A DNA stretch of 64,000 nt from Polyangiaceae bacterium (lineage in GTDB: Bacteria > Myxococcota_A > Polyangia > Polyangiales > Polyangiaceae). Below, in pieces: positions 8,272 through 27,928 of the stretch. Under the pieces are notes generated by a model that did not search any database, was not told the DNA's origin, and saw only the letters and a program-made list of their open reading frames with translations. The position numbers and the translations under genes are program-made. The stretch's first letter is position 1, and every line of letters starts with the position of its first letter. The stretch covers positions 1 to 64,000 of the forward strand of contig JALHPN010000018.1 in assembly GCA_022842465.1 (NCBI GenBank), in the 5' to 3' direction.

Positions 8272-9075
8272 ATGCGGTTCGCGTCGCTGTGCTCCTTCGT
8301 CTTCGCGCTGCTGTTCACGCTCGCGAGCACCGCGGAGGCGGCGCCTCGGTGGGTCGACCGCGCGCAGACGCTCCCGAAGTACGTCTTCGAAGGCAACGCT
8401 GGCCTCGGCATCGGGCACTCGTCGTTCCGGAACGGCAACGGGTCGCTCAACGGCCCGGGCCTGAACCTCGAGGGCGCCTTCGGCATCACGGACTCGGTCG
8501 AGGTCGGCCTCCGCACCGGCGTCCGCATGGGCAACGAGGCGCGCGCGCTCCAGGCCGACTACTACGGCCGCACGCTCTGGACGGAGACCTACGGCACCGG
8601 CATCTCGACGGCGGCGAACCCCGAGGCGCGCGTGCGCTGGAGCTTCTACAGCGGCCGCGTCGCGGAGATCGGCCTCGACGCTCGCCTCTATCTCCCCTTC
8701 GAGAGCGGCACGCGCATCGGCGCGATGATCGGCGTCCCCTTCACGTTCCACGTCGCCGACTTCCTCCGCATCGACACGGGCGCGTACGTGCCGCTCGTGT
8801 TCTACGACGATGCGTTCTTCGCGATCACGGTGCCGGCGTACTTCTGGTTCCAGGCGACAGAGCGCTTCTTCATCGGCCCCATGGCCTCGCTCCGCTACCT
8901 CGACCCTGGCCCGGGCCCCGGCGACAGCGCGCTCCTCCTCGGCGTGGGGATGGGCTACCAGGTGGCCAGCGCGGTCGACCTCAAATGGTGGTTTCTGATG
9001 CCCAACGTAAACGAGGGCGGCGGCATCCGAAGCTTCGGCGGGGGCTTCGGCGTAGGCTTCCGCATCGGAGAGTAG
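8272..9075 (+). CDS. outer-membrane beta-barrel-like protein
   Basis: Secreted protein of 267 residues with a clear signal peptide ending in an AEA-AP cleavage site near residue 26. The mature part alternates short strands rich in Gly, Tyr, Phe and Trp (for example [14 protein letters not shown] and [10 protein letters not shown] at the very end). This pattern and the terminal strand suggest a transmembrane or lipocalin-like beta-barrel. I do not recognise a named family. ATG at 8272 is preferred over the in-frame ATG at 8263 because the latter lies inside the TACGAT promoter box. The msrA start follows its stop after two bases, so the two are co-transcribed. Confidence 0.75.
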
Positions 9076-9077
9076 AG

Positions 9078-9728
9078 ATGGGATTGTTCAGCGACACGAA
9101 GGCGAGGATGCCGTCTCGGGACGAAGCTCTGCCGGGGCGGGCCGACAGGATGCCGGTCGCGGCGCGGCACGTGGTCTTGGGAACGGCCATGGACGAGCCC
9201 TGGCCCGAAGGGAGCGCGACGGCGCTCTTCGGGATGGGCTGCTTCTGGGGCGTCGAGAGGAAATTCTGGCAGGTGCCGGGCGTCGTCTCGACCCAGGTCG
9301 GCTACGCCGCGGGCCACACGCCGAACCCCACGTACCGCGAGGTCTGCAGCGGACGCACCGGGCACAACGAGGTCGTCCGCGTCGTCTACGATCCAGCGAA
9401 GGTCTCCTACGAGACGCTCGTGAAGACCTTCTGGGAGAACCACGACCCGACGCAGGGCATGCGCCAGGGGAACGACGCGGGCACGCAGTACCGCTCCGGG
9501 ATCTACGTCTACGACGCGGCCCAGCGCGCGGTCGCCGAGGCGTCGCGCGAGGCGTACCAGGCGCGCCTCCGCGAGGCGGGCTACGGCGCGATCACGACGG
9601 AGATCCTCGACGCGCCGCCGTTCTACTACGCGGAGGACTATCACCAGCAGTACCTGGAGAAGAACCCGGCGGGGTACTGCGGCGTCGGCGGCACCGGCGT
9701 CTCTTGCCCCGTGGGCGTCGGCGTCTGA
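9078..9728 (+). CDS. msrA: peptide methionine sulfoxide reductase MsrA
   Basis: Enzyme of 216 residues that reduces methionine-S-sulfoxide in proteins, using thioredoxin. The catalytic GCFWG motif puts the sulfenic-acid Cys at residue 55. Downstream are [24 protein letters not shown] and the EDYHQQYL motif near the C-terminus. The tail [12 protein letters not shown] supplies the resolving Cys residues. The first 45 residues extend past the fold, like the longer N-terminus of the E. coli enzyme. A GGAG lies upstream of the ATG. It lies two bases after the beta-barrel gene and converges with the next gene, whose stop is nine bases away. Confidence 0.96.
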
Positions 9729-9737
9729 TCGCCGCTC

Positions 9738-10853
9738 TCAGTCGACGGCGCCGACGAAGAGCTCCTCGATCGCCCGGCCGGCGCTCGAGGCACGGTCCGG
9801 CGCGAGGCCCATGACGTTGCGGAGGGTCGGGGTGACGTCCGCGAGGTAGTGGGGCCGCGCCGACATCACGCGGCCGCGCGCCGCGATCGACGGGCCGGCG
9901 GCGAAGAGCCACACGCGCGCCGACTCGGGGGCGAAGCCGCCGTGGTTCTTGAAGTCGGCGGCGCGGCCGTGGTCCGCGGTGACGAACACGTGGGTCCGCT
10001 CCCCGCGATTTCCCATGCGCGCGAGCGCGTCGAAGACCTTGCCGACGAACGCGTCCGCGTCGGTGAGCGACGCGAGGTACGCCTCGTAGTCGCCGTGGTG
10101 GGCGTGCTCGTCGGGGTCGCCGAGCCCGACGAAGAGGACGTCGGGCTGCTCCTGCTCGAGGAACGCCAGGGCCACCTCCGTCGTGTGGCGATCGGGGCGG
10201 TAGTCCCCGTGCCCCGGCCACGGGTTCACGGCAGGGTCTCCCTCGCGCCCGGCGGAGACGAGGAAGGGCCGGCTCGCGCGGTCGTGGCTCGAGGTCGTCG
10301 CGCGCTCGAGCTTCTCCCAGGATCCGAACGCGGCGACCTTGGCGCCCGCGCCGTGGGCTTGATCGAGCAGCGTGGGCGTGTCCGCTCCCGGACAGTCGTT
10401 GTCCTGGCAGGCACGCGACGGTCGCCCGGTGAAGATCTCCGTGTACCCCGGGAGGGAGATGAAGTTCGGGCCGCTCGCGAGGATGACGCCTCGCCCCGGA
10501 GCCCCGATCACGGCGCCCCGCTCCCTGCCCATCCTCGTGAGGTTCGGGACGATCTCGTCCGGAGACCGGACCGCGGCGGGCGTCCGCGCCGCCTCCGAGC
10601 CCTCGAAGATCTCCTGCCACCGCGCCCCGTCGATCGTGACGAGCACCACGGGGTGGAGGAGACCGTCCTCCGCGCGGGCGGGCTCGAGCCCCTCGGGCGC
10701 GGGCTCGCTGCGCCCGCCGACGTCGTCCCCGAGCCCGCCCCCCCCGGGGAACGCGATCTCGCGGGCTTCCGGCTGCCCCGCGCAGCTCGCGACCACGACC
10801 AGGAGCGCGACCAGCGCGCTCCGCATCCATCCGCCCGACGGGCTGACCGACAT
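9738..10853 (-). CDS. alkaline-phosphatase-superfamily lipoprotein (phosphodiesterase/sulfatase type)
   Basis: Lipoprotein of 371 residues with a hydrophobic signal and lipidated Cys24 (VASC). The mature domain has the metal-site pattern of the alkaline phosphatase superfamily: LVTIDGARW (first Asp), the nucleophile region SLPGYTEIFTG (Thr), GLGDPDEHAHHGDY and VTADHGR. It should hydrolyse a phosphate or sulfate ester in the periplasm or at the cell surface; the substrate is unknown. It is close to type I nucleotide pyrophosphatase/phosphodiesterases. An AGGA sequence lies nine bases before the ATG at 10853, which fixes the start; the frame stays open upstream to 10928. Confidence 0.85.
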   Translation of the reverse strand: MSVSPSGGWMRSALVALLVVVASCAGQPEAREIAFPGGGGLGDDVGGRSEPAPEGLEPARAEDGLLHPVVLVTIDGARWQEIFEGSEAARTPAAVRSPDEIVPNLTRMGRERGAVIGAPGRGVILASGPNFISLPGYTEIFTGRPSRACQDNDCPGADTPTLLDQAHGAGAKVAAFGSWEKLERATTSSHDRASRPFLVSAGREGDPAVNPWPGHGDYRPDRHTTEVALAFLEQEQPDVLFVGLGDPDEHAHHGDYEAYLASLTDADAFVGKVFDALARMGNRGERTHVFVTADHGRAADFKNHGGFAPESARVWLFAAGPSIAARGRVMSARPHYLADVTPTLRNVMGLAPDRASSAGRAIEELFVGAVD

Positions 10854-10991
10854 GCGTGCATCCTGCACGCGCTCGGTGACATCGAGGCGAAGCGGCGTGA
10901 ACGTCTGGGCGAAACTTCCGCCGGGCATGCCGGAGGAGATGCCCGAACCGTGCCGACGACGTGACGTCGTTCACCGCCCCGTCACGCGACA

Positions 10992-12530
10992 TCAGCGGAC
11001 GCGACCCGCATGTACGTCGACGGTCCGCGTCGTGAGCCGAGCGGCCAGCGCGTCGTCGTGCGTCACCAGCACGAGAGCCCCCGGGTAGAGGACGAGCGCC
11101 GCCTCGAGGCGCTCGAGCGTCGGTAGGTCCAGGTGGTTCTCCGGCTCGTCGAGGACGAGGGCCCACGCATGACGACCGAGGCCGGAGCCGAGCACGAGCT
11201 TGCGCGCCTCGCCGGGCGAGAGCGTCGCCGCCACATCTTCCGCGGGGATGCGCGATGCCACGCGTGGCAACACCGCCTCTGGGTCGCTGCCGAGCGACGC
11301 GAAGATCGACAGCGCGCGCCCGCGCGCCTCGGGCGTCGCCGAACGGAGGAGCTCGATCTCCTCCGCCACGTCGCTGGCGGACAGCTCCTGACCGAGGACG
11401 AGGAGGTGAGACCGCGGCGGGCCGGACGCGAGAATCGCGCCGAGGAGGGTGCTCTTCCCCGCACCGTTCGGCCCCGCGACGCGCACGCGCTCGTCGCGGC
11501 CGATCGTGAACCGCACGTCACGCAGCACCGTGACCGCAGGATCATGGCGAGACGCCACGATCGGTGCATCGAGGTGGAAGAGGACGGGGCGCGGCGCGCG
11601 CTCGTACCCCGCGAAGACCGCGCCTCCGATCGTGCGATCCCGCTCGATCTCGGGCACCCCCTGCGCGGCGCGCTCGTACGCCGCGCGCACGACGGCCGCC
11701 GTCCTCCCCGTGCGCGCCTCCGCCATCGCTGCCTGCCCCTTCGCAAGGCTGCCGCGAGCGTCGCTGTCTCGCGGCCCCTTCATGCGGGTTCGCGTCGAAC
11801 GCGCGCGGTCCGCCGAGGCGTGCTCGCGCCGCGCCTCGTCGAGCCTCGCGAGGAGCAGCCTCTCTCTCGCGCGCGCCGCGCCGTGCGCCGCCTCCGCCGC
11901 GCGACGCTCCAGAGACCACTGCTCCATCGCCGCGCCGTAGGCCCCGGTGTACGTCACGACCTGCCCGGCGTGGACGCGCACCGTGCGCGTGGCGAGCGTT
12001 TCGAGGAGCGCGCGATCGTGGGAGACCACGACGCCGATGCCGCGGAAGCGGCGGAGCGCCGAGACGAGCTTCTCCCGCGCCTCGCGATCGAGGTGGTTCG
12101 TGGGCTCGTCGAGGAGGAGGACGTCGGGATCGCGGACGAGCGCCGCCCCCACGCGCCAGCGCTGGCGCTCGCCGGGCGACATCGTCCCCCACCGATCCGG
12201 CGACGGCTCCTCGTCGAGCGCGAGCCGCCCGCGTAGCTCTGCGGCGCGACCGTCGTCGTCCTTCGCGAACGCGAGGACGTCTTCGCCGCACGCGAGCGCG
12301 TCCTGCGAGACCATCGCGACGAGCGCGTCGTGGGGCTCGCGCCGCACGGTGCCGCTCGCAGGCGAGAGCTCCCCGGCGAGGACGCGGAGCAACGTCGACT
12401 TCCCCGCCCCGTTCGCGCCCACGACCCCGGTGAAGCCGGGCGAAAGACGGAGCGACACGTCGTTCATCACCGGGGCACGGTGGGCGTGCGCCACCGTCAC
12501 CCCGTGCAGCTCGAGCACGAGACGACTCAT
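10992..12530 (-). CDS. ABC-F family ATPase
   Basis: Soluble protein of 512 residues with two ABC domains and no membrane part, the ABC-F layout. Members act on the ribosome as translation factors or antibiotic-resistance proteins. Domain 1 has Walker A GANGAGKST at 38-46, signature SPGERQ and Walker B LLLDEPTNHLD. A charged helical linker rich in Arg, Glu and Ala follows. Domain 2 has GPNGAGKST, LSPGEARKL and LVLDEPENHLD. The second Walker B site reads DEPENHLD instead of DEPTNHLD. A GGAGG sequence precedes the ATG. The 133-bp upstream gap could hold a leader, but I see no clear attenuator. Which ABC-F subgroup it belongs to cannot be told from motifs alone. Confidence 0.92.
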   Translation of the reverse strand: MSRLVLELHGVTVAHAHRAPVMNDVSLRLSPGFTGVVGANGAGKSTLLRVLAGELSPASGTVRREPHDALVAMVSQDALACGEDVLAFAKDDDGRAAELRGRLALDEEPSPDRWGTMSPGERQRWRVGAALVRDPDVLLLDEPTNHLDREAREKLVSALRRFRGIGVVVSHDRALLETLATRTVRVHAGQVVTYTGAYGAAMEQWSLERRAAEAAHGAARARERLLLARLDEARREHASADRARSTRTRMKGPRDSDARGSLAKGQAAMAEARTGRTAAVVRAAYERAAQGVPEIERDRTIGGAVFAGYERAPRPVLFHLDAPIVASRHDPAVTVLRDVRFTIGRDERVRVAGPNGAGKSTLLGAILASGPPRSHLLVLGQELSASDVAEEIELLRSATPEARGRALSIFASLGSDPEAVLPRVASRIPAEDVAATLSPGEARKLVLGSGLGRHAWALVLDEPENHLDLPTLERLEAALVLYPGALVLVTHDDALAARLTTRTVDVHAGRVR

Positions 12531-21388: not shown

Positions 21389-21450
21389 CGGTCTCACGTC
21401 CGCGACGTCGACGAGCGGCGCGCCCTCGGACTACTGAACATGTGAGACCG
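21389..21450. repeat. 9-bp inverted repeat upstream of the lipoprotein-kinase operon
   Basis: CGGTCTCAC at 21389-21397 matches its reverse complement GTGAGACCG at 21442-21450 exactly, with a 44-bp spacer. It lies between divergent genes (starts at 21306 and 21515). The stretch is less GC-rich than its surroundings, as promoter regions here tend to be. It could be a paired operator; the function is unknown. Confidence 0.4.
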
Positions 21451-21514
21451 CTGTTTGTCCCTGCGGAACTGCCGCGCTCGCCGGCGACACTTGCAGTTCA
21501 AACGAATCGATCGA

Positions 21515-22072
21515 ATGCTCTGCTCCACCATGGGCCTACCCGCCGCATGGGTCGTCGGCATGATGATGGCGCTCGAGCCGAGCGCACCTTGGCGACCGAC
21601 CTACGAGAGAACGGCAGACGCGATCGTCAAGGTCGTGGACGCCGAGCCGCTCTTCGAAGGCGACCCCTCTCGCAGTGCCGCGCTCCTCGTCTCCGTCGCG
21701 TGGCACGAGAGTCGGCTGAAGCCGGACGCGGTGTCGAAGAACGGGCTCTGGCTCTGCCTCTACCAGGTCGACAAGAGGCACCTCGCGGATCCGAAGAAGG
21801 CGCTCGAGGATCCGGAGGTCTGCACGCGGGCGGCGATGAAGATCCTCCGCGCCTCGCTGAAGGCGTGCGCGGCGCGACCGGTGGACGAGCGGCTCGCGTT
21901 CTTCATGTCCGGCAAGTGCGACAGAGGGCTGCCCGAGAGCCGCTATCGGATGTTCATGGCGAAGAAGCTCCTCGAGAAGCATCCGCTCCCGCCGCCGCCG
22001 CCGGACGAGAAGACGATGAAGAGCGAGCTCGTCGCCGAGGCGAAGAAGCCCGAGAAGGACAAGGATCGCTGA
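21515..22072 (+). CDS. lysozyme/transglycosylase-like protein
   Basis: Protein of 185 residues. The motif ALLVSVAWHESRLKPDAV at about 65-82 resembles the catalytic helix of SLT/goose-lysozyme-like transglycosylases, with the Glu of WHESR as the candidate acid. LWLCLYQVD follows where such proteins have a G-x-x-Q-hydrophobic strand. The C-terminus is Pro- and Lys-rich (LPPPPPDEKTMK). A signal peptide is not obvious: a hydrophobic stretch AAWVVGMMMAL near the N-terminus could be one. A clear paralogue is at 57968. Start choice is uncertain (ATG at 21515 or 21530; the frame is open from 21455). Confidence 0.7.
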   Translation: MLCSTMGLPAAWVVGMMMALEPSAPWRPTYERTADAIVKVVDAEPLFEGDPSRSAALLVSVAWHESRLKPDAVSKNGLWLCLYQVDKRHLADPKKALEDPEVCTRAAMKILRASLKACAARPVDERLAFFMSGKCDRGLPESRYRMFMAKKLLEKHPLPPPPPDEKTMKSELVAEAKKPEKDKDR

Positions 22073-25792: not shown

Positions 25793-25873
25793 GCACGGGT
25801 GGCGAAATGGCAGACGCAGCGGGTTTAGGTTCCGCCGCCGAAAGGTGTGGGGGTTCGAGTCCCCCCCCGTGCA
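25793..25873 (+). tRNA. tRNA-Leu (anticodon TAG)
   Basis: A class II tRNA of 81 nt can be folded by eye. The acceptor stem is GCACGGG with CCCGTGC, followed by discriminator A. The D-arm region reads GGCGAAATGGCAGACGC, typical of tRNA-Leu. The anticodon arm is GCGGG-TTTAGGT-TCCGC with anticodon TAG (reads CUN codons). The variable arm is CGCC-GAAA-GGTG, and the T-arm is GGGGG-TTCGAGT-CCCCC. CCA is not encoded. The 3' part, from the anticodon loop on, is repeated 2,052 bp downstream as the attachment site of an integrated element; the tRNA itself is intact. Confidence 0.95.
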
Positions 25874-25876
25874 CTT
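25824..25876 (+). repeat. attachment site copy 1 (inside tRNA-Leu)
   Basis: This 53-bp sequence begins at the anticodon loop (TTTAGGT) and ends three bases past the tRNA. It is identical to 27876-27928. The bases on either side differ (G/C before, A/T after), so the limits are exact. Confidence 0.9.
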
Positions 25877-25995
25877 AGCCCGATTTTTCCGGGGTCCCGT
25901 GCGAACGCGACGAACGGGAACGGAGGCGGCGCCTACCACTTCCCTACCACTTACCTCCGGGATCGCGAGGTGGAGGGGCGCGAGCGCGCCAAGCT

Positions 25996-26976
25996 CTAGC
26001 TCCTCCACCGTCCGCGGCGGTAGGCGGCCACCTGCGCCGAGGACTTGTGCCCGGTCCTCGCGGTCACCCACGCCTCGGTCTTCCCGTTCGCGAGGGCCAA
26101 GGTAATGAACGTCGCACGGCAGTCATGGATCCGGATCGGGCGGCGCGCCTTGCTCCGCTCGAAAAGCTCCAGACGCTTCACGCCCGCAAGTTGGAGGTGA
26201 GCGCGGAACGTGTCCGCGAGGTGGCCGGGGTTGAGGATGCGCGCGAACACCGGATCGGAGTCCTCGTGCGGGACGCGCTCGCGCCACCACTTCAACGTGA
26301 GGACCACGGAAGGATCGAGCGCCCATGCCCGCGGGTCATCGGTCTTGTTCTCGTCCAGCCTCACGGCTCCGTGTTCGAGGTCCAGATCCCCCCACTGAGG
26401 GAAAGGGCTTCGCTCGAGCGCATCCCCTCGCGGCAAAGGAAGCCGTACAGGATGCGGTTGACGAGGGGGACGCTTGTCCTCGGAGCCGGTGCACGCGAGC
26501 AGTGACCCTAGGACCGGGTAAATGTATTTCTCGAGCCGCGAGACGTCATCGTCCGCCGTTCTCTTGTCGTTGACGTGATCCGGGTAGAGCTTGTGCAACT
26601 CTCCCGAGGTCCAGCGCTCGGCAAACTTCCGGAACGTCATACCGCCGCGAGGCGTGGACGGCACCGAGAGAATCGAGGCGGCGGACCGCTCGGCCGCGAG
26701 CGCCGCGACGCTTCGCTTGACCTCGGCAAGACCACGGACGGGGTCCGCCTTGCCGGCGTTCAACGCGCGTGAAATCGCCTCCCCCATGACCGCGGTGCGC
26801 CCGCTCGAGCGGAGGACATGAGCAAGGGCTTGGAGCGCGTCCGCCCACTCTTGGGCGTTCTCCTCGTCCGTGGCCCACCCGATGGCGCGCGCGATGCGCT
26901 TGCCGGGCTCGATCGTGAAGCGGGCATGGCGGACACCGTCCAGAACGATGACGCCCCCACGTGCCTCGCGCGGCAT
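25996..26976 (-). pseudogene. tyrosine recombinase/integrase, decayed
   Basis: Open frame of 326 residues. The C-terminal catalytic part is clear: RLDENKTDDPRAWALDP, then RIHDCRATFITLALA (His-x-x-Arg), RTGHKSS (His) and a Tyr in QVAAYRRG. The N-terminal SAM-like region includes KLYPDHVNDKRTADDD and YIYPVLG. Two faults are visible. Between YIYPVLG and LLACT a block of the usual core-binding domain seems to be missing. From about 26470 to 26394 the open frame reads nonsense, while the frame shifted by one gives VPLVNRILYGFLCREGMRSS then EALSLS, the normal segment with the first catalytic Arg. A one-base gain and a one-base loss therefore cancel. A GGGAGG lies upstream of the ATG. It should have integrated the element, but is probably inactive now. 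Confidence 0.85.
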
Positions 26977-27015
26977 GACTACTTGCCTCCCTTCCGCGCG
27001 GCGGCGCGGAGCACG

Positions 27016-27073
27016 AACGCCCTAGAAACGCCCTAGAACGGGCTTCGCGCAAGGTGAAAGAGCGGGCTTCGCG
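27016..27073. repeat. direct repeats upstream of the integrase
   Basis: AACGCCCTAGA is present twice in tandem (27016-27026, 27027-27037), an 11-bp period close to one helical turn. GGGCTTCGCG follows twice, 24 bp apart (27040-27049, 27064-27073). They lie in the gap just upstream of the integrase start (26976). They may be regulator or integrase arm-binding sites. Confidence 0.5.
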
Positions 27074-27075
27074 AA

Positions 27076-27121
27076 CGTCGCGAAAGCGACGGGCCGGACC
27101 TCCCGAAAGGAAGCCCGGCCC
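27076..27121 (-). terminator. two adjacent hairpins after the DUF4288 gene
   Basis: GGGCCGG (27091-27097) pairs with CCGGCCC (27115-27121), with extra TCC/GGA pairs inside. Next to it CGTCGC-GAAA-GCGACG (27076-27091) is a perfect 6-bp stem. Both lie just beyond the DUF4288 stop at 27125, as a factor-independent terminator would, but there is no T-run. Confidence 0.45.
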
Positions 27122-27124
27122 CGC

Positions 27125-27535
27125 TCACCCGACGTCGAATTTGCGGCGCCGCCGCCGGTCTCGTGGTGTCTCCTCGCGGCCTAGCAAGCGCGACACGACG
27201 GCATCGTCCGAGACCCGCGAGCCCACAAGCTCGGTCCGCGAGTAGACCTCTTGACCGGCTCCCGGCTCACCCGAGAGGACGAACGCGTTGCACACGCCTA
27301 GGAAGGTCGCGGTCACGCGTTGACCGTAGGGCGTCACCCATCGCGGGGACGAGACGTACGAACGCGCTTCCTTCTCTCCCCGGTCCGTCGCCTCGTCAAA
27401 GGAGCGTGCGCGGACGAGCACCACGCGTTCCTCCACGAGAGTCGCGTCCGGATCGAAGTCCGGATCCTTGCGGACGGCACGTCCGCGCGCCGCGATGCGA
27501 TAGAGCGTCTTGACCCCGTACCAAGCCCACGGCAT
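27125..27535 (-). CDS. DUF4288 protein
   Basis: Protein of 136 residues in the DUF4288 family. The pattern starts WYGVKTLYR and continues LVEERVVLVRARSFDEA, GEKEARSYV, then RVTATFLGVCNAFVLS and EVYSRTELV. It is a small alpha/beta cytoplasmic protein of unknown function; relatives are found as accessory genes and near toxin-immunity loci, which hints at, but does not prove, an immunity or defence role. The last ten residues are mostly Arg and Lys. It is 24 bp downstream of the small gene at 27560 in the same element. Confidence 0.8.
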   Translation of the reverse strand: MPWAWYGVKTLYRIAARGRAVRKDPDFDPDATLVEERVVLVRARSFDEATDRGEKEARSYVSSPRWVTPYGQRVTATFLGVCNAFVLSGEPGAGQEVYSRTELVGSRVSDDAVVSRLLGREETPRDRRRRRKFDVG

Positions 27536-27559
27536 CGCGGCCGAGCGTACAGGATCACG

Positions 27560-27823
27560 TCACCCACGGCGGCGCTTCCTCCTACTCGCGAGGTCCACCA
27601 CCGCCGCCCCGCGCTCCGGCCGGGCACGCTCGGACATCGGCGGCGCGGGCTCGGACATGAGACGGTCCAACGCATCGCGCGCAACCGCGTACGCCTCCCG
27701 GTCGCCCGCGGCCGCCGCGTCCGCCACCGCTCGCGTGAGGGCCGCCACGAGGGCGGCACGAGGCGGAAGGGAAGCGGTAGGGATTGGTAGCGACTCGGCG
27801 CGAGTGGGGCCGAGCGTGTCCAC
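27560..27823 (-). CDS. small hypothetical protein of the element (87 aa)
   Basis: Protein of 87 residues starting with GTG at 27823. The middle is a long amphipathic helix (ALTRAVADAAAAGDREAY, then AVARDALDRLM) and the end is very basic (LASRRKRRRG), which suits nucleic-acid binding. It could be a regulator or directionality factor for the integrase, but no known fold is recognised. It is the first gene of the element's transcript, close to the distal repeat. Confidence 0.6.
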   Translation of the reverse strand: MDTLGPTRAESLPIPTASLPPRAALVAALTRAVADAAAAGDREAYAVARDALDRLMSEPAPPMSERARPERGAAVVDLASRRKRRRG

Positions 27824-27875
27824 GTGCGCCGGGGTTTCGCGACGCTTCGCGACGGCCGGCGGCGGATTGCGCTGC

Positions 27876-27928
27876 TTTAGGTTCCGCCGCCGAAAGGTGT
27901 GGGGGTTCGAGTCCCCCCCCGTGCACTT
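27876..27928 (+). repeat. attachment site copy 2 (distal end of element)
   Basis: Exact copy of 25824-25876, the 3' part of tRNA-Leu without its 5' half. It marks the right end of the element; no tRNA can form here. Confidence 0.9.

Follow-up and report, generated by a model that had tools for sequence, protein, structure and literature searches.

In the Islander collection of islands in transfer RNA (tRNA) genes, the class formed by anticodon-type crossover (class A) accounts for 2083 of 3919 islands and islands with a 5′ tRNA fragment for 159 of the 3919, with a length criterion of 2-200 kb, as given in the part of that source drawn on here (PMC4383910). Cis-mobilizable elements (CIMEs) are described, in the passages of another source that concern them (PMC5704250), as decayed integrative and conjugative elements (ICEs) or integrative and mobilizable elements (IMEs). 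The element considered here lies in the tRNA-Leu(TAG) gene of a Polyangiaceae bacterium, within a stretch of 64,000 nucleotides that is referred to as the window (GCA_022842465.1, contig JALHPN010000018.1, positions 1 to 64,000, forward strand). Its genome, G000, is a single metagenome-assembled genome (MAG) of 9.57 Mb in 431 contigs with 6.17% contamination. The insert is very probably a decayed tRNA island that has reached a CIME-like state.

The element and its broken integrase gene

ARAGORN finds one tRNA in the whole window, tRNA-Leu(TAG), and the features of the element are as follows.

25793..25874, plus strand: tRNA-Leu(TAG), the intact target gene (ARAGORN)
25824..25876, plus strand: attL-side repeat copy, from the anticodon loop to the tRNA 3′ end plus 2 nt (exact repeat; boundary common to other elements)
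27876..27928, plus strand: attR-side repeat copy, the displaced tRNA 3′ half, 53/53 identical (exact repeat)
25952..26976, minus strand: broken tyrosine integrase gene (tblastn of nine relatives, alignment, sub-cut-off Pfam match)
27560..27823, minus strand: 87-aa member of a Polyangiales protein family whose genes often lie immediately inside tRNA halves (family model, position)
27125..27535, minus strand: DUF4288 protein of 136 aa, the one cargo gene (PF14119)
27070..27135, minus strand: stable hairpin immediately behind the stop of DUF4288 (-46.7 kcal/mol, z -5.71)

The two repeat copies agree at 53 of 53 bases and lie 2,052 bp apart from start to start, beginning at nucleotide 32 of the tRNA, in the anticodon loop, and ending 2 nt beyond it. 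Other direct-repeat families between 24 and 30 kb of the window are 19-41 nt long with 67-84% identity (20 of the 38 families listed), and the exact 53-bp match is far beyond chance. The G+C content of the insert is 69.1% vs 71.3-71.4% in the flanks. Three minus-strand frames lie between the copies, namely an integrase-like open reading frame (ORF), the DUF4288 gene and the 87-aa ORF. An exact 53-bp repeat of the 3′ part of an intact tRNA-Leu, with these three genes enclosed, had been reported in a preliminary description from the letters of the DNA; the repeat and the three ORFs are borne out, and the integrase gene proves to be broken.

The integrase-like ORF (25996-26976, minus strand, 326 aa) remains open through a frame-shifted piece. 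It matches a PHROG integrase (E 5e-12) and scores 26.7 bits against Pfam Phage_integrase (PF00589), just below the cut-off of 27.1, over profile positions 45-167 of 172. Pieces of the gene are found in frame -3 (26976-26500), frame -1 (about 26492-26394, the block with the first catalytic arginine, ArgI), frame -3 again (26397-26014) and frame -2 (26026-25952). The counterpart of residues ~152-230 of the relatives is missing near 26500-26474, a loss of some 70-80 residues, or about 220 nt as judged from the spacing between two conserved blocks. Among the nine tblastn queries, six return the N-terminal block as a separate match (E 5e-25 to 6e-17) and five place the ArgI block in frame -1 (E 4e-7 to 9e-6, with a sixth at E 0.02); the C-terminal block in frame -2, found with one query (E 3e-4, with a second at E 0.2), is the weaker evidence. 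The nine relatives in the alignment (A1, 9 of the 15 related integrases read) are invariant at R255, K280, H359, R362, H385 and Y394, which make up the catalytic R, K, HxxR, H and Y. A working integrase in the element was rejected because of the internal loss and the frame changes. With parts of it missing, the element's own integrase would not be expected to bring about excision; in principle, the element could be mobilised in trans by an intact integrase with the same specificity, hence its likeness to a CIME.

A side observation concerns integrase genes at large. ARAGORN calls a tRNA-Glu at L273:1668-1740, inside the integrase gene of G037, which is probably a false call, and BLAST matches to this tRNA-Glu(CTC) call recur within other integrase genes, the window's among them.

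The insertion site and island layout in relatives

A match to the window's tRNA is present in 49 of the 58 genomes searched and is near full length at 80% identity or more in 25 of the 58, as read from the match table. Five of these 25 carry a copy of the 3′ half on the same contig, at a distance of 2.05 kb in the window, 5.4 kb in G020, 3.6 kb in G007, 4.4 kb in G030 and 14.5 kb in G033. The repeat boundary falls at the same point of the anticodon loop in G033, G020 and G030 and close by in G007, and the tRNA-Leu(TAG) site is a hot spot. The remaining 20 have no listed 3′-half copy from about nucleotide 32 on the same contig, some of the contigs being short; one of them, G031, has a 77% match to nucleotides 18-82 on the same contig, 27 kb off. 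The insert of G030 (L069:1787-6251), 4.4 kb long at tRNA-Leu(TAG) with 61/61 identical repeats, encodes two proteins that match the PADLOC candidates PDC-M28B (E 7e-58) and PDC-M28C (E 2e-61) and has no match to the window's integrase family.

G003, G007 and G010 each have a frame similar to the window's 21446-22069 (57-61% identity) at 0.1-0.64 kb ahead of tRNA-Leu; in the window itself the frame is 3.7 kb ahead of the tRNA. The stretches read in G003 (10.0 kb) and G010 (9.0 kb) hold a single tRNA copy each.

Four relatives share the layout of the window on one contig, with tRNA-Leu, an integrase gene pointing toward it, cargo, an 87-aa-type gene and a tRNA half. G033 belongs to the same family as the window (island of 14,541 bp, att match 56/57); G263 (9,058 bp, 51/51), G037 (6,051 bp, 57/58) and G205 (4,623 bp, 60/66) belong to other families of the order. 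The integrase is full length in G033 and G037 and is present as C-terminal pieces only in G263 and in G205, where they lie in two frames, so that it is broken in three of the five islands with the window counted. In all three, the stretch of the tRNA between its anticodon loop and its end recurs without a change in the tRNA half (by alignment reading in G205), and unbroken halves beside broken integrases may indicate that integrase decay is quick or favoured. The cargo of G033 includes a DnaB-like helicase, an O-like initiator, a terminase-small-subunit-like protein and a serine recombinase, and among further islands of the integrase family L180 has a DnaB-like helicase and L176 a D5 primase. 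No conjugation or transfer gene was found among the scanned proteins of the relatives, which are not all of their ORFs.

In a scan of GTDB contigs for relatives of the integrase, limited to the best 80 of 108, all carriers are myxobacterial or labelled 'delta proteobacterium' except for one Gemmatimonadaceae MAG. Among 109 integrase places (window copies excluded), 44 have their first tRNA on the opposite strand, at a distance of 39-204 bp, and seven have it on the same strand, with none found in 58; many of these contigs are short, and L066/L124 and L085/L179, both within the 44, are duplicates of a single place each. On viral contigs, a nearby tRNA is present at 1 of 19 integrase places. Many kinds of tRNA are involved, with Leu and Lys the most frequent. 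A tRNA 3′ half of 38-57 bp lies in the collected upstream DNA at four of the 44, at 14.5 kb in G033, 9.8 kb in L176, 10.5 kb in L180 and 2.6 kb in L181; L197, with a match of 16 bp, is not counted as a fifth case. The L181 island (Polyangiaceae MAG.220; 8534-11240) occupies 2,633 bp at tRNA-Lys(CTT) and encodes an integrase of 383 aa that keeps the motifs; it also has a DUF433 gene and appears toxin-antitoxin-like by eye. At L142:11239-11509 and L153:3273-3492, two integrases of the family flank one tRNA-Leu(TAG) on both sides, tail to tail. A plasmid search returned 18 records at 3-5% query coverage, 17 of which end within the first 85 bases of the tRNA, while one joins a second piece. Searches of the open-licence PubMed Central (PMC) literature turned up nothing on point about tRNA islands in myxobacteria.

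These elements of the same site and the same layout support the earlier proposal of an integrative element that targets a tRNA gene, and relatives that carry both repeat copies without the element were not seen. No clean empty tRNA-Leu site flanked on the right as in the window turned up in the relatives examined. Finding the intervening genes elsewhere without the repeats would have counted against the proposal; this is the case for DUF4288, whose relatives occur without such an integrase, and not for the integrase and the 87-aa gene, whose relatives adjoin tRNAs or tRNA halves.

The 87-aa family and the DUF4288 gene

The 87-aa family is absent from Pfam, PADLOC, NCBIfam and PHROGs, all searched at E 0.1. 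Its alignment (A3) holds four copies, from the window, G033, L130 (Myxococcales MAG UBA1660) and L145 (Sorangium cellulosum So ce26), with 37-40% identity to the window's. Searches with the single sequence are weak outside the window (L145 at E 8e-5, L130 at 0.002, L164 at 0.004 and G033 at 0.015), G033 was taken as a seed partly because of its position, and the family thus rests on the four-copy model together with position. The model matches in 44 of the 183 genomes of the order (seed genomes included), with at least 28 matches in one genome, and these counts may be low.

A tRNA or tRNA-fragment match lies within 450 bp on the 5′ side of the 87-aa gene at 18 of 30 loci (window's included) and on the 3′ side at 1 of 30, the latter being L253, which has matches on both sides. 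Without the four model rows (L243, L244, L246 and L247, all with upstream matches) the counts are 14 of 26 vs 1 of 26; the tRNA library behind them was drawn from the collected loci, those of the model rows included. The 18 upstream matches comprise 14 halves that break between tRNA nucleotides 27 and 40 (read from the match table), two whole or near-whole tRNAs (L257 and L270) and two shorter 3′ pieces (L253 and L265). L130 and L145 directly display an integrase, then a tRNA half, then the 87-aa gene, an arrangement that tandem islands or a closed circle would produce. The half is a 5′ half at L145 and at least three other copies. Genes of the family adjoin a tRNA-Leu 5′ half (within nucleotides 1-40) at L243, L245, L248 and L258, which represent the rarer 5′-fragment islands. 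Several loci speak against a strict link to att sites: 12 of the 30 have no tRNA match within 450 bp upstream, another copy from the same genome as the window (C35; L275:7624-7806) has neither a tRNA match nor a family integrase in 18 kb, and one copy of So ce26 lies 6 kb from an integrase (L164).

The 87-aa protein is predicted to fold into a helical hairpin, with one more helix at the C-terminal side and a basic tail (mean predicted local distance difference test, pLDDT, 71.0), modelled from an alignment (A4) of three of the four A3 rows. A winged-helix excisionase is not obvious in this fold. By eye, the ORFs at the far ends of G007 (L070) and L180 look similar to the family; the model has no match in G007, and they are not claimed as relatives. 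A tentative and rather doubtful idea is that this is a new, unnamed family of the recombination end of Polyangiales tRNA islands. Given the gene order of L130 and L145, in closed or tandem form, the protein may aid the choice or execution of integration or excision at attP; under the same doubtful idea, islands with a dead integrase that keep the 87-aa gene and both att copies may form a trans-mobile pool.

The DUF4288 gene begins 24 bp past the 87-aa gene, and its product covers PF14119 in full (profile positions 1-84 of 84, 54.1 bits, E 2e-14). The hairpin behind its stop, as folded by prediction, is possibly a transcription end. The profile is present in 14 of the 289 genomes of the class. 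As a query, the window's protein matches in 1 of 57 other genomes (G013, 40% over 76 aa, located elsewhere), and the profile additionally matches in G003, G029, G049 and G057. At the 13 other DUF4288 loci (3.2-17 kb each; eight of them are aligned with the window's protein in A2), this integrase family is found at 0 of 13, in a search that did not extend to other integrase types or defence genes, and the 87-aa model has no match among the ORFs. The neighbours there resemble ordinary chromosomal genes, as judged by eye. With no PADLOC match at E 0.1, the reading of DUF4288 as a known defence protein was rejected; so was that of a known phage gene, with no tblastn match at E 0.01 in 50,697 phage records and no close relative confirmed on viral contigs, and PHROGs gave no match. 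The best solved-structure match (E 0.27) is taken as chance, and the best Foldseek match to a single-sequence model (mean pLDDT 63.7) stands at E 0.26. No paper in the open-licence PMC literature contains 'DUF4288'. The gene may be useful to the cell, or merely not lost yet.

Probable island decay, its alternatives and the known systems

The most probable history begins with an ancestor that encoded a complete integrase and whose attP contained the 3′ half of tRNA-Leu(TAG); it would have crossed over with the chromosomal tRNA gene at the anticodon loop. As suggested by the repeat and the relatives, integration would have rebuilt the tRNA and pushed the previous 3′ half to the other end of the insert. 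The gene itself displays the later loss of an internal stretch of the integrase and of its reading frame; most of the cargo would have gone as well if the ancestor was like the larger relatives. What is left comprises the two att copies, the 87-aa gene at the far end and a single DUF4288 gene.

Several observations weigh against this history. The far repeat copy is free of mutations despite several lesions in the integrase, which may mean that insertion and decay are recent or that the copies are somehow maintained. Three of the nine tblastn queries give a single gapped alignment in frame -3 that spans the lesion. The evidence comes from one MAG with 6.17% contamination, in which single-base assembly errors are possible, though they would not explain the absence of about 220 nt. 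In no relative examined was the window's right flank seen next to tRNA-Leu without the element, and the empty junction can therefore only be inferred. The larger ancestor is likewise an inference from comparison, and the 2.6-kb L181 island has an unbroken integrase.

Under one unlikely alternative, the integrase was already broken before insertion, and a non-autonomous mini-element was moved in trans through its att ends by the integrase of a full relative. This would account for att copies that are 53/53 identical beside a broken integrase, and for the unbroken tRNA halves that accompany the likewise broken integrases of G205 and G263. However, the window's own genome has the tRNA half and the DUF4288 gene in a single copy each, and the single match to the DUF4288 query in 57 other genomes, in G013, lies elsewhere. 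The other family integrases of G000 lie beside tRNA-Cys (L071) or in two pieces (C63), so no fitting helper was found.

The preliminary description also suggested that DUF4288 may be a minimal defence or immunity cargo, and a mini-island protecting against phage is very unlikely to be the explanation. The G030 insert indicates that this tRNA-Leu(TAG) site can host candidate defence genes, but the DUF4288 and 87-aa proteins match nothing in PADLOC (E 0.1) or PHROGs, and the 13 other DUF4288 loci (3.2-17 kb each) have no match to this integrase family or to the 87-aa family. That the element is a naturally tiny working one, with an integrase and one cargo gene and no remnant character, is hardly credible despite the precedent of L181, as the window's integrase lacks ~70-80 residues and has its ArgI block out of frame.

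Taken together, the data argue that the element is a real tRNA-Leu island with perfect ends, dead and probably shrunken. What looks like a tidy mini-element is then a step on the way down for tRNA islands in myxobacteria with large genomes, at which both att ends and the far-end gene outlasted the integrase. The 87-aa family provides a handle for locating the far ends of islands even after integrase loss; it is the part that merits follow-up, with the function of the protein as a testable question.

Among described systems, phage satellites (phage-inducible chromosomal islands, P4-like satellites and phage-inducible chromosomal minimalist islands) resemble the larger relatives, which have an integrase with replication genes and, in G033, a terminase-small-subunit-like gene. 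The three window genes, in contrast, include no replication or packaging gene, and none has a PADLOC match at E 0.1. Of the two earlier alternatives, the satellite is accordingly not supported; the remnant is supported by the broken integrase.

As far as the Islander description drawn on here extends (PMC4383910), the window has the form of its islands, with an intact tRNA and a displaced 3′ half downstream in the same orientation, an integrase between them and an anticodon-type crossover. A whole tRNA gene with its cognate fragment, a permitted length and a contained integrase ORF are all present; the length of 2,052 bp sits at the 2-kb floor, and the integrase is broken, unlike the intact one of a putatively active island. 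A CIME, as portrayed in the relevant passages of PMC5704250, likewise retains attL and attR and has lost its integration gene. A possible difference lies in the ICE or IME origin of CIMEs, as the scanned proteins of the relatives (not all ORFs) gave no conjugation gene. They did include DnaB-like helicases together with an O-like initiator, a D5 primase and a terminase-small-subunit-like protein. Set beside these systems, the decay of the window element is an ordinary fate for a known kind of element.
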